From Sphingomonas sp. HF-S4 (GTDB lineage Bacteria > Pseudomonadota > Alphaproteobacteria > Sphingomonadales > Sphingomonadaceae): DNA of 64,000 nt. Positions within the stretch are counted from its first letter, which is position 1. The number at the start of each line of letters is the position of its first letter. Positions 16,481-22,280 of this stretch are shown piece by piece. A model generated the notes under the pieces. That model was given only the letters and a program-made list of their open reading frames with translations. It was not told where the DNA came from and did no database searches. The stretch lies in NCBI RefSeq assembly GCF_032911445.1, contig NZ_JAWJEJ010000001.1, positions 1,736,001 to 1,800,000 on the forward strand, written 5' to 3'. The translations under genes and the position numbers were made by a program.

Positions 16481-17068
16481 CTATGGGCCCGCAGGCGCCT
16501 TCGCCAAGCCCTGGACGATCCATCGGCCGGTCCTGACTTCGGACAGAACATGCCAGCGCGCGCCGGTATCGCGCAGGAAGTCGGCATGGATGCCGGCAGC
16601 ATGCTGCACGAAATCATGAAAATCGATGCGGTGGTGGGCCAGCACCAGCCGCCCGCCGACAGGCAAGGCGCGGGACACGCGCCTGGCGGTCTCTGCCATG
16701 ACCCGCGCGGTCAGGTAATAGAGTACTTCGGCCACGATGATCGCATCGTAGCGCGGGCTCGGGAAGGGATCCGGAAGCGCAAGGCGCAACGCGCGCGCGC
16801 CGGGACAATCTGCGATCGCCTTGGCAACCAGCGCCGTCCCCTCCGCCGTCCCTTCCGTGGCATCGAGGCGCAACGTGCGGCGCGCGAGCGTGGCGCTGTT
16901 CGAGCCGTTGCCGGCCGCAAGCTCGAGGATGCGGCCTCGCTTGCCGGAACCGAGCGCGTGCAGGATCGCTTGCCGCTTGTGCGCCTCGTCTCGGTCGGAG
17001 AATGTGAACCAGGGATCGGGATCGGCGGCGAACTTCGCCTCGAACCCGTCTAGCGTGATCGGCCGCAT
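16481..17068 (-). CDS. NodS-like SAM-dependent methyltransferase
   Basis: 195 residues. The SAM-binding motif I reads RILELAAGNGSNSATLA (about residues 46-62), followed by the acidic post-I position and YDAIIVAEVLYYL as motif II. The start FEAKFAADPDPWFTFSDRDEAHKRQAIL and overall length match the NodS group, whose founding member N-methylates the chitooligosaccharide backbone of Nod factors. It is the last gene of the katE-led operon and its start overlaps the end of the deacetylase gene by 19 bp. The natural substrate here is unknown; an amino sugar made free by the neighbouring deacetylase is a reasonable guess. Confidence 0.87.
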   Translation of the reverse strand: MRPITLDGFEAKFAADPDPWFTFSDRDEAHKRQAILHALGSGKRGRILELAAGNGSNSATLARRTLRLDATEGTAEGTALVAKAIADCPGARALRLALPDPFPSPRYDAIIVAEVLYYLTARVMAETARRVSRALPVGGRLVLAHHRIDFHDFVQHAAGIHADFLRDTGARWHVLSEVRTGRWIVQGLAKAPAGP

Positions 17069-17709
17069 GGCCGCTCCTCCCTGAAAAGCTCGGCCGGGCG
17101 CGAGAAGGCGCGCAATTCCTGTGGCGCGATCTGAAAACCACTCGGATCGTCCGCGATCCAGCCCATCTGGGTGCGATATCGCCGGATCGCGGCACGCTTC
17201 ATCGCCCGGCCCTCGCGCAGAAACAGCGAATGGCCCTGCATCTTGTCGCCCCAGACGAGATAGGAAAGGCGGCGCACGCCGGGCAGCAAGGCATGCGCCA
17301 GCCCGTCTGCTGTTGCCCGATGATCGGGGTGCGCGTCGGCCCGCGTCGGGGCGATCACCAACTGCAGGCCGGCTATGCGGCGCGCGGCGCGCGCGATCGC
17401 GCGAAAATGAGCGGATACTTCGCCTAGCCCACCATCGGGCAGGCCGAGGAAGCGGATCTTCCCCGCCGGCACTCCCAATCCGCGCATCGCACGCCGGGTC
17501 TCGCGCCGCCGCTCGGCAACCAGCCGGGCACGGGGCCAGCCGGGGCTCGACGGGTGAGAGACCGCACCGTCGGTCACCACCACGACCCGTACTTCGCGTC
17601 CGCGCTGCCGTAGCAGACGGATCAGGCCATAGGCGCCGATGGTCTCGTCATCGGCGTGCGGCGCGACGACCAGCGTGACCGCCGGATTGCCGATCCGTAG
17701 CGGGCTCAA
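17050..17709 (-). CDS. PIG-L/LmbE-family deacetylase
   Basis: 219 residues. The zinc motif PHADDE (residues about 18-23) and the later HPDH (DAHPDHRATADGL) are those of PIG-L N-acetylglucosaminyl deacetylases such as MshB, BshB and LmbE. No ATG or GTG exists at the right place; the best start is a TTG at 17709 that overlaps the stop of the upstream gene (TTGA), matching the coupling seen throughout this operon. A long open frame runs upstream of it but overlies the acyl-CoA-dehydrogenase-like gene out of frame. The enzyme probably removes an acyl group from an amino sugar conjugate before the methyltransferase acts. Confidence 0.87.
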   Translation of the reverse strand: MSPLRIGNPAVTLVVAPHADDETIGAYGLIRLLRQRGREVRVVVVTDGAVSHPSSPGWPRARLVAERRRETRRAMRGLGVPAGKIRFLGLPDGGLGEVSAHFRAIARAARRIAGLQLVIAPTRADAHPDHRATADGLAHALLPGVRRLSYLVWGDKMQGHSLFLREGRAMKRAAIRRYRTQMGWIADDPSGFQIAPQELRAFSRPAELFREERPCGRSR

Positions 17710-19780: not shown

Positions 19781-20196
19781 CCGCGCGCGGCCAGCCGGCG
19801 GGCGTTCGACATGGCCTTGGCGTGGAGAGGCGCCCACCATGCACGCGACGATGCGATCGAGCGCTCCCAGCCGTCGAGCATGCTCATCGCACCCCGCGGC
19901 GCGCCGTTCGCGCCTCGGGCGGGCGTCGTCCACACACGCGCCGCCGCGGTGCCCGCCTTATCGAACGCGGCGGTCTTTTCCCGGATCAACCCGCCGAATT
20001 CGGCATGCGGCATACGCCCGGCACCGCGCAGACCGGCGTCGAGCATCTGCATGCGTGCGCCGATCACCGCCTGCGACGCCACCAACGTTTCGGCCAGCTC
20101 CATCGACAGGTGCCACAGATCGAGGCCGCCGCGCATCAGCCTGCCCCAATCCTCGATACCTGCAGTGACGAGACCGGCGGGCGTGCCGTGCGTCAT
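19777..20196 (-). CDS. phasin-like hypothetical protein
   Basis: 139 residues, predicted to be almost entirely helical and without membrane segments or cysteines. The pattern WHLSMELAETLVASQAVIGARMQMLDAG and the C-terminal WWAPLHAKAMSNARRLA resemble small phasin-type or granule-associated proteins, but the similarity is weak. It is translationally coupled at both ends: its start overlaps the katE stop by 4 bp and its stop overlaps the glycosyltransferase start by 4 bp. This makes it an integral part of the operon, so I regard it as real even though its function is unknown. Confidence 0.7.
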   Translation of the reverse strand: MTHGTPAGLVTAGIEDWGRLMRGGLDLWHLSMELAETLVASQAVIGARMQMLDAGLRGAGRMPHAEFGGLIREKTAAFDKAGTAAARVWTTPARGANGAPRGAMSMLDGWERSIASSRAWWAPLHAKAMSNARRLAARG

Positions 20197-22280
20197 GCGA
20201 GTTGCCGCACGCCGGGTTCGCGGTCCCAGAAACGCTGCGCGGCGGCGTCTACGAACGCCTTGTCGATACCCACCACGCCGGCATCGGGCACTACCCCGGC
20301 CTTGTCGAGCAACGGCTGCGCTTCGGGCGTGTGCCCGATCGCCTTGAGGTGACCGAACGCATCCATGACGAACTGGACCGCCGCGCCTTCGTTGAGCAGC
20401 GCTGCCGTGCCTTCCTTAGACAGGATCACCGCCACGGCATCGGCAAGCACCGATGGGTAGCCTGCGAGCTGGGCATCGGCCTTGAGCAGCGTGCCGTCCG
20501 AAAGCGTCGCACCACCGACCTTGGGTGCGACGATCACCGCGCGTGCGCCGCCGCCGGTGATCGCCTCGGTCAGCGTGGCGACCGCACCGGCGTCCGAACC
20601 GTCGGCGACGAGCACTGCGATCGAGCGCCCGGCAATGTCCTGCGGCGCGAGCGGCCCCTCGACGATCCGCAACGCGGGTGACAGGTCGAAGTCCTGCACC
20701 GGCACGGCCGGCTTCGAGCCCTTGGGCACGGGCATGCCGATGCCGTCGGCGACACGCGTTGCCAGTTCGACATCGACATTGACGAGGTTCGCCACCACCC
20801 GTTCGCGAACATGTTCAAGCCCGACCTTGGACAGCTCGAACACCAGCGCCGAGGCCAGATGCGCCTGTTCGGGCGCGGCCAGCGAGCGGAAGAACATCCG
20901 CGCCTGGCTGTAGTGATCGGCGAAGCTCGCCGGGCGGATGCGCAGCTTGTCGCCCTGCTCGCCCTCGTCGCTACGCCCGGAGACGGTCTGGAACCCTTGC
21001 ACCGGGCATTCGCGCGGGCCCCCGCCCTCGGGATCGCGATCGCTCTCGTTGAGGCTGTTGGGCTCGTAGTTGGCGCGTCCCTTGGGCACCGCCATCTGCA
21101 TATGCCCGTCGCGCTGGAAGTTCATCACAGGGCATTTCGGTGCATTGATCGGCAACTGGTGGAAATTGGTCGAGCCCAGCCGCTTGAGCTGGGTATCGAG
21201 ATAGGAGAACAGCCGCCCCTGGAGCAGCGGATCGTTGGAGAAGTCGATCCCCGGCACGATGTTCGCCGGGCAATAGGCGACCTGCTCGGTCTCGGCGAAG
21301 AAATTGTCCGGATAGCGATCGAGCACCATCCGGCCGATCGGGCGGACAGGGAGAACCTCCTCGGGAATGATCTTGGTCGGATCGAGCACGTCATAGGGCA
21401 GGCTGTCGGCAAACGCCTGGTCAAATGCCTGGATGCCCAGTTCCCATTCGGGAAAATCGCCGCGGGCGATCGCCTCGAACAGGTCGCGGCGATGGAAATC
21501 GGGATCGGCGCCGGCGATCTTGACCGCTTCGTCCCAGCAGGTGGATTGCACGCCCTGCTTGGGCTTCCAGTGGAACTTGACGAAGGTCGCCTTGCCCTTG
21601 GCGTTGACCATCTGGAAGGTGTGGATGCCGAAGCCCTGCATCGTGCGCAGCGAACGCGGGATTGTGCGGTCCGACATCGCCCACATGATCATATGGGTCG
21701 ATTCGGGCATCAGCGACACGAAATCCCAGAAGGTGTCGTGCGCCGAGGCCGCCTGCGGATAGCCGCTCTGGGCTTCCATCTTCACCGAATGGATCAGGTC
21801 GGGAAACTTGATCGCGTCCTGGATGAAGAACACCGGGATGTTGTTCCCGACCAGATCCCAATTGCCTTGCTGGGTGTAGAACTTGACCGCAAAGCCGCGC
21901 ACGTCGCGCGGCGTATCGACCGAGCCGGCACCGCCCGCCACGGTCGAGAAGCGCGTGAACACCGGGGTCCGCTTGCCCTTCTCGCTGAACAGGTCGGCGC
22001 GGGTGAGGTCCGAGAGGTCCTCATAAGCTTCGAAAAAGCCGTGCGCAGCCGAACCGCGCGCGTGGACGATCCGCTCGGGGATGCGCTCGTGATCGAAGTG
22101 GAAGATCTTCTCGCGCAGCATGAAGTCTTCAAGCAGGACGGGACCGCGCACGCCGGCCTTGAGCTGGTTTTGGTTGTCCGAAACCGGAATGCCCTGATTA
22201 GTGGTCAGGATATCGGTTTCATCGTCCGCGTGCTGATGGACTTCGCCACCGTTTCCGGTCGATTTGTCGCGGGTCGCCAT
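20193..22280 (-). CDS. katE: large-subunit catalase HPII
   Basis: 695 residues, the size of HPII-type monofunctional catalases. The core has the heme-pocket features: distal His in RIVHARGSAAHGFFE, RDVRGFAVKFYTQQGNWDLVGNN, and the proximal heme Tyr in RLFSYLDTQLKRLG. The last 150 residues (from about 550, GRSIAVLVADGSDAG onward) are the flavodoxin/DJ-1-like domain found only in large catalases. It decomposes hydrogen peroxide in the cytoplasm. It heads a six-gene operon in which every junction overlaps, and a near-consensus EcfG promoter lies upstream. Confidence 0.97.
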   Translation of the reverse strand: MATRDKSTGNGGEVHQHADDETDILTTNQGIPVSDNQNQLKAGVRGPVLLEDFMLREKIFHFDHERIPERIVHARGSAAHGFFEAYEDLSDLTRADLFSEKGKRTPVFTRFSTVAGGAGSVDTPRDVRGFAVKFYTQQGNWDLVGNNIPVFFIQDAIKFPDLIHSVKMEAQSGYPQAASAHDTFWDFVSLMPESTHMIMWAMSDRTIPRSLRTMQGFGIHTFQMVNAKGKATFVKFHWKPKQGVQSTCWDEAVKIAGADPDFHRRDLFEAIARGDFPEWELGIQAFDQAFADSLPYDVLDPTKIIPEEVLPVRPIGRMVLDRYPDNFFAETEQVAYCPANIVPGIDFSNDPLLQGRLFSYLDTQLKRLGSTNFHQLPINAPKCPVMNFQRDGHMQMAVPKGRANYEPNSLNESDRDPEGGGPRECPVQGFQTVSGRSDEGEQGDKLRIRPASFADHYSQARMFFRSLAAPEQAHLASALVFELSKVGLEHVRERVVANLVNVDVELATRVADGIGMPVPKGSKPAVPVQDFDLSPALRIVEGPLAPQDIAGRSIAVLVADGSDAGAVATLTEAITGGGARAVIVAPKVGGATLSDGTLLKADAQLAGYPSVLADAVAVILSKEGTAALLNEGAAVQFVMDAFGHLKAIGHTPEAQPLLDKAGVVPDAGVVGIDKAFVDAAAQRFWDREPGVRQLA

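Follow-up and report, generated by a model that had tools for sequence, protein, structure and literature searches.

Four neighboring genes in a 64,000-nucleotide stretch of the Sphingomonas sp. HF-S4 genome (C1:1736001-1800000 of 4.44 Mb in three contigs; hereafter, the window) make up the conserved core of a gene set that recurs across Pseudomonadota and in three further phyla. They encode a GT2 glycosyltransferase, a flavoprotein resembling acyl-CoA dehydrogenases (ACAD-like), a PIG-L family deacetylase, and a NodS-family methyltransferase. These genes are found together at locus after locus, their proteins diverge together, and they belong to known enzyme families whose motifs are intact. 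The genes for a catalase (katE) and a phasin-like protein, which adjoin them in the window, are not part of this core. With moderate confidence, we propose that the four genes act as one biosynthetic cassette, which would make a modified aminosugar glycoside under stress by the route set out below. The enzyme families are known, and the cassette is apparently undescribed: a search confined to open-license PMC papers found no description of it or its product, and the sections of PMC6599016 and PMC13232832 on which we draw below do not describe it.

Conservation and co-inheritance of the core

The frequency of the set was estimated from an evenly drawn sample of 398 Pseudomonadota genomes from 212 genera, in which no more than five candidates were scored per genome, so that genome counts are lower bounds. 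The ACAD-like family is present in at least 34 of these genomes, or about one in twelve, and in at least 23 of the genera, mostly with its partners. Neighbors were then counted at the 33 evenly drawn loci other than the window, at a threshold of 60 bits and within about 8 kb. At 32 of these loci the ACAD-like gene has a methyltransferase gene nearby, at 28 a PIG-L gene, and at 26 a GT2 gene; because all four occur together in 24, the grouping is more than chance. The original prediction had read the tight coupling of six genes in the window as a sign of a common pathway. Across proteobacteria, the neighborhoods keep the core genes together rather than dispersing them, and the prediction therefore holds for the glycosyltransferase, deacetylase, methyltransferase, and ACAD-like protein.

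It does not extend to the other two. We rejected the catalase as a core pathway member, since katE was near the ACAD-like gene in just 4 of the 33 evenly drawn loci. Counts are higher in Sphingomonadaceae (8 of 20 loci by tblastn) and among named loci (18 of 34). Of these 18, however, 16 come from Sphingomonas cassettes that are almost the same (94 to 100% identity in the ACAD-like DNA) and are therefore not independent. The phasin-like gene, which had no match in any of 54 cassette loci, was likewise rejected as a cassette member. The protein has 13 database homologues. One of them, P0122, and the ACAD-like protein P0002 (95% identical) are both listed with a longest contig of 19,227 bases, so they may sit together in a close relative.

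Within Sphingomonadaceae, 21 of 149 genomes, the window's own included, carry the ACAD-like gene, and 17 of 20 loci contain all four core genes by tblastn (one locus from each other genome; second matches in two genomes were left out). A class-level genome search matched at least 124 of 385 genomes, mostly through ordinary dehydrogenases scoring below 80 bits; at least six, again counting the window's own, exceeded 300 bits. All four genes are also together in Acinetobacter johnsonii, A. baumannii, and Pandoraea and, outside Pseudomonadota, in Deinococcus gobiensis, Nostoc, Streptomyces, Embleya, Kitasatospora, and an actinobacterial metagenome-assembled genome from a bog (L077; loci are cited by L numbers). 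In D. radiodurans, the ACAD-like, PIG-L, and methyltransferase genes were found. Gene order and strand vary between loci.

Pairwise distances among the four core proteins correlate with r values of 0.75 to 0.86 across 37 loci, a value reached in 0 of 2,000 permutations (38 loci were chosen, and Cupriavidus L098 was dropped, its PIG-L gene being unmatched). Distances involving katE gave r values of 0.51 to 0.65 across 15 loci. Part of the correlation among core proteins may be species relatedness. Some loci, against the general pattern, keep fewer core genes (L075 and L082 in Methylobacterium, as well as L106, L116, and L143). Separately, three near-identical Sphingomonas cassettes (L048 to L050) have no GT2 match, and in L050 an open reading frame (ORF) that by eye looks integrase- or transposase-like lies directly upstream of the ACAD-like gene.

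Enzyme families and a proposed route

For the cassette, the enzyme families and intact motifs are observed, and the substrates, step order, product, and stress role are inferred. The GT2 protein exceeds the cut-off for PF00535, its structural model has a predicted local distance difference test (pLDDT) score of 89.8 with matches to GT-A folds, and D122-A-D124 is invariant in 23 rows. The NodC model is absent from its five NCBIfam matches at E 0.01. With a nucleotide sugar as donor, this enzyme would place an N-acetylated sugar on an acceptor, and the route would end in a modified aminosugar glycoside or in the capping of a larger saccharide. A different outcome, which we consider possible yet unlikely, is that several glycosyltransferases build an exopolysaccharide or envelope saccharide that the cassette modifies, instead of a small soluble glycoside. 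The presence of an extra GT4, a GT28-like enzyme, and a second GT2 in the cassette run of L037 and L041 suggests a larger saccharide in some lineages, and further glycosyltransferases lie near the cassette in L117, L119, L120, and L121. Also, the operons reported as stress regulated in S. melonis Fr1 include a glycosyltransferase operon (#3505-3509) with an "exopolysaccharide biosynthesis protein" (PMC6599016), homology to the cassette not being implied. Nevertheless, each extra glycosyltransferase family occurs in just 3 to 6 of the 33 evenly drawn loci; of the 21 loci that belong to a class other than that of the window, only L143 has such families.

In the glycoside route, the PIG-L enzyme would take off the acetyl group of the GT2 product. 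It is the only PIG-L match in its genome and scores 88 bits against PF02585 (cut-off, 28; E 8.6e-25) and 54.7 bits against the BshB1 model (cut-off, 182.5). Residues H18, D20, D21, H127, D129, and H130, which we take to be the metal-binding residues, are invariant in 23 aligned rows. Support for this step comes from Rubrobacter indicoceani, where a NodB-like CE4 polysaccharide deacetylase gene directly precedes the ACAD-like gene and is followed by genes for a NodS-family methyltransferase, an oxidoreductase, and a GT2. The best NCBIfam match of this deacetylase is NodB (TIGR04243; E 9.4e-33), below the model's cut-off, and PIG-L was not found in the 12.6-kb locus. The replacement of PIG-L by a NodB-type enzyme, at this one locus, points to sugar N-deacetylation as the function that the cassette needs. 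A CE4 replacement was not found in any of the 33 evenly drawn Pseudomonadota loci. Divergent PIG-L matches occur in L140 (32 bits) and Cupriavidus L098 (39 bits), and four loci, all of family f194 (L123, L126, L128, and L130), have two PIG-L genes beside the cassette.

The methyltransferase would then act on the deacetylated product, most likely at the freed amine. Its Pfam matches are to Methyltransf_12/25 and NodS, slightly under cut-off, and it scores 22.4 bits against the NodS equivalog of NCBIfam, short of the cut-off of 300. Its family profile matches the NodS structure 3ofj at E 2.8e-27 and 4isc at E 9e-50. D18-P-W20 and E28 are invariant among 24 methyltransferases, and the aligned part of NodS 3ofj likewise starts with DPW. 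This match and the deacetylase exchange in Rubrobacter bear out the partial Nod-factor logic that had been read from the window's gene content.

The flavoprotein is probably not a dehydrogenase, judging by its sequence. It has the acyl-CoA dehydrogenase fold (AlphaFold2 pLDDT, 95), and its match to the Pfam family Acyl-CoA_dh_1 is weak and below cut-off. The top four profile matches are the monooxygenases DszC/TdsC, followed by 5z8t (labeled as a flavin-containing monooxygenase), 5gj7 (labeled as a putative acyl-CoA dehydrogenase), and then true dehydrogenases, whose matches start at E 5e-14; nitrososynthases rank lower than DszC/TdsC, and the aminosugar nitrososynthases DnmZ and KijD3 are among the fold relatives. 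At the YEGT position, where dehydrogenases have their glutamate, all 28 ACAD-like rows carry P, A, or H. As controls, the own-genome dehydrogenases L085 and L088 have glutamate and L087 has aspartate; the other three of the six control ORFs, apparently wrongly picked, failed to align and were left out. The family has conserved motifs of its own (EGH, GVW, and DLxxxLxQ), and the N-terminus of the window's protein is shorter than in group D flavin monooxygenases. In the proposed route, the flavoprotein would oxidize the product. Most likely it would do so not by acyl-CoA dehydrogenation but as a monooxygenase that depends on reduced flavin and carries out N- or C-hydroxylation.

Because the family lacks the dehydrogenase glutamate, the earlier description of these proteins as acyl-modifying enzymes is doubtful. 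For the same reason, and given the monooxygenases that head the profile matches, we regard it as improbable that the flavoprotein acts on an acyl chain, with a glycolipid or an N-acylated aminosugar being made or remodeled by the cassette; moreover, an acyltransferase was not found among the six window genes.

Two further observations concern this family. In three Deinococcus species, the annotated ACAD-like protein is roughly double the normal size (747 to 782 amino acids; L079:7546-9885, L092:6576-8924, and L103:5618-7861). For the first 427 residues of the D. radiodurans protein, which look glycosidase-like by eye, Pfam gave no match at E 0.001.

Stress-gene neighbors, regulation, and movement

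Under stress or on drying, the proposed product would be made while catalase, trehalose, and other stress genes are also in use. The neighbors of the cassette support such a link. The Comamonas endophytica cassette is flanked by otsA, with which it has a 4-bp overlap, and otsB; that of Legionella lytica comes after otsB and a gene for a GH65 enzyme. Both otsA and otsB are near in 3 of the 33 evenly drawn loci, beside the cassette in L133 and L139 and some 6 kb away on the other strand in L134. TreZ-like matches in five loci are weak (52 to 121 bits) and all at locus ends. Mn-catalase matches occur in four loci, one of them strong, and genes for the double-strand-break repair proteins Ku and ligase D (LigD) in two; Ku and LigD genes also stand beside the cassette in Bradyrhizobium. 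In Sulfitobacter, katE is directly downstream of the cassette, whose neighbors in Roseivivax include Mn-catalase and universal stress protein genes and in S. parapaucimobilis Dps and ferritin-like genes. In A. baumannii, KatE has been tied to survival of drying (PMC13232832).

Regulation was approached with an EcfG matrix derived from 25 motifs that had been published for S. melonis Fr1. The site at 25206(-), before the SRPBCC gene, scores first in the window. The second-best site, 16154(+), precedes a small convergent ORF, which by eye looks CsbD-like and has no Pfam match. Before katE, the EcfG-type site is poor, as 57 positions score equally high. The strict motif occurs in 6 of 49 cassette or kat runs versus 9 of 165 other runs (raw counts), and it is not enriched genome-wide (41 occurrences versus 60 in a reversed control). 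For this last reason, EcfG or stress regulation of the unit is only suggestive. Among the EcfG-dependent genes of S. melonis Fr1 in Table 1 of PMC6599016 are one for a catalase and another for a Zn-dependent alcohol dehydrogenase, orthology to the window genes not being implied. The original prediction of a product made under oxidative or general stress thus gains from neighboring genes a linkage that regulation can only hint at.

The cassette also appears to move. In a tree of 45 ACAD-like rows, Salinisphaera, a gammaproteobacterium, falls within an 11-row set that is otherwise Sphingomonadales (support, 100/100), and beta- and gammaproteobacterial rows group with Actinomycetota (100/100). 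Nostoc and Deinococcus are in a large set that contains alphaproteobacteria, and the nearest named relative of the window protein is from Sphingomonas hylomeconis. The ACAD-like DNA is identical in an S. panni locus, an S. abaci locus, and L025. Among 72,556 plasmid records, 62 have a relative at E 1e-5, and in 45 of them the match spans 80% or more of the query; phage records gave two weak matches only, both from contigs that carry the name of a single Acinetobacter phage.

Such a sporadic, often plasmid-borne, and mobile distribution would also suit a secondary metabolite of competition, such as an aminosugar antibiotic. DnmZ and KijD3, the nitrososynthase relatives of the flavoprotein, belong to antibiotic pathways, and transporter genes lie near some loci (MFS in L081 and L105; RND efflux in L080 and L090). 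We nevertheless find this very unlikely: the genes that recur beside the cassette are those for catalase, trehalose, Ku/LigD, Dps, and ferritin-like proteins, and the window's ABC-transporter ATPase gene (10104-11192) is some 5 kb from the cassette on the other strand. Least credible of all is that unrelated stress genes were merely gathered under a shared promoter, which would fit katE and the phasin-like gene, neither of them kept with the cassette, but not four core genes that stay together across four phyla, with varied neighbors and orders, while diverging together.

Beyond a single biosynthetic cassette in the window, we tentatively put forward a bolder and, in its entirety, rather doubtful proposal. 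The cassette may define an undescribed class of bacterial stress metabolites, namely aminosugar glycosides (perhaps trehalose based in some lineages) that are de-N-acetylated, N-methylated, and oxidized by an ACAD-fold oxygenase; it would be a self-contained protection module spread by plasmids, in which PIG-L and NodB-type deacetylases are interchangeable. If a protective molecule is indeed made, it would represent a new class of compounds for bacterial tolerance of drying and oxidative stress, and the label "acyl-CoA dehydrogenase" would be corrected for a whole protein family.

Locus layout and comparison with known systems

The six minus-strand genes predicted at 16481-22280 are all present (Table 1), with four 4-bp overlaps (20193-20196, 19777-19780, 18695-18698, and 17706-17709) and a 19-bp overlap between the PIG-L and methyltransferase genes (17050-17068). 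Stop-codon ends are certain, and start codons were chosen among alternatives (18707 or 18674 for the ACAD-like gene and 19765 for the GT2 gene; an in-frame ATG lies 15 bases upstream of the SRPBCC start). Although katE is the first of the six overlapping genes, four more genes run in the same direction upstream of it, up to about 25149, so that the catalase may not stand at the head of the unit, where the original prediction had put it. Between the SRPBCC gene and katE, the genes first overlap by 1 nt and are then separated by 7, 5, and 116 nt, the last being the sole gap in the co-directional run that exceeds 7 nt. Transcription may thus begin before 25149, and katE need not be the head.

Table 1. 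Genes and candidate signals at the cassette locus (window positions)
Feature	Position	Strand	Basis or remark
Candidate terminator hairpin 3' of the methyltransferase gene, 8 G-C pairs	16423..16441	-	Pattern scan
NodS-family S-adenosylmethionine-dependent methyltransferase (core gene 4)	16481..17068	-	Pfam, family profile
PIG-L family N-deacetylase (core gene 3)	17050..17709	-	TTG start; PF02585
ACAD-like (acyl-CoA-dehydrogenase-fold) flavoprotein (core gene 2)	17706..18698	-	Model, profile matches
GT2 (GT-A) glycosyltransferase with C-terminal helical extension (core gene 1)	18695..19780	-	PF00535
Phasin-like protein	19777..20196	-	NCBIfam PhaP6, below cut-off
Large-subunit catalase, HPII/KatE type (katE)	20193..22280	-	PF00199, PF06628, PF18011, above cut-off
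51-amino-acid ORF between SDR gene and katE	22397..22552	-	Codon-model gene call
SDR oxidoreductase, upstream stress module	22558..23343	-	PF00106
Zn-dependent alcohol dehydrogenase, formaldehyde-dehydrogenase-like	23351..24541	-	PF08240/PF00107
SRPBCC (polyketide-cyclase-like) protein, first of co-directional run	24541..25149	-	PF03364, above cut-off
Candidate EcfG-type promoter GGAAC-N16-CGTT	25182..25206	-	Top-scoring site in window

The catalase has its Catalase, Catalase-rel, and Catalase_C domains all over the Pfam cut-off and scores 936 bits against the HPII equivalog of NCBIfam (cut-off, 1102). The phasin-like protein scores 36 bits against PhaP6 (cut-off, 100) and has no Pfam match, and none was found for the 51-amino-acid ORF. 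The SDR gene adjoins Zn-dependent alcohol dehydrogenase and SRPBCC genes in L029, L035, and L037 too. The best NCBIfam match of the alcohol dehydrogenase is glutathione-independent formaldehyde dehydrogenase, below cut-off, and its similarity cluster is represented in 24 of 55 loci, the window included. Terminator-type hairpins number 11 in the region, whereas shuffled sequence gave 5.9 on average. The cassette has a gene of the transglutaminase family close by in the window (15249-16106), Novosphingobium (L094:407-1255), and Comamonas (L102:10433-11296); in the window, this gene shares a 4-bp overlap with a polyhydroxybutyrate-depolymerase-like gene.

The cassette can be compared with four known systems. 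First, the flavoprotein shares its fold and closest sequence profiles with group D flavin monooxygenases (DszC and TdsC) and nitrososynthases (DnmZ and KijD3), but there is no partner flavin reductase among the window's ten co-directional genes. A divergent gene for an NADPH-dependent FMN reductase in Gloeothece (L112:7102-7659) adjoins a distant ACAD-like homologue only. Second, OtsA/OtsB trehalose operons enclose or flank the cassette in C. endophytica, L133, and L139, whereas the window's co-directional genes include no trehalose gene.

Third, bacillithiol and mycothiol synthesis starts with a glycosyltransferase, followed by the PIG-L enzyme BshB or MshB. Glycosyl transfer and then PIG-L deacetylation would likewise be the order in the cassette. 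The bacillithiol and mycothiol glycosyltransferase is of the GT4 type, in contrast to the window's GT2, and a BshC-like match was not found among the six genes.

Fourth, the cassette is not a member of the Nod-factor system, because no match to NodC, NodA, or NodB was found for any of the six window genes. Nod-factor synthesis uses the CE4 enzyme NodB, while the window has a PIG-L enzyme and, in addition, an ACAD-fold flavoprotein. Nevertheless, a deacetylase, a NodS-family methyltransferase, and a GT2 are common to both, and the cassette is predicted to work like the part of Nod-factor modification that is carried out by NodB and NodS.

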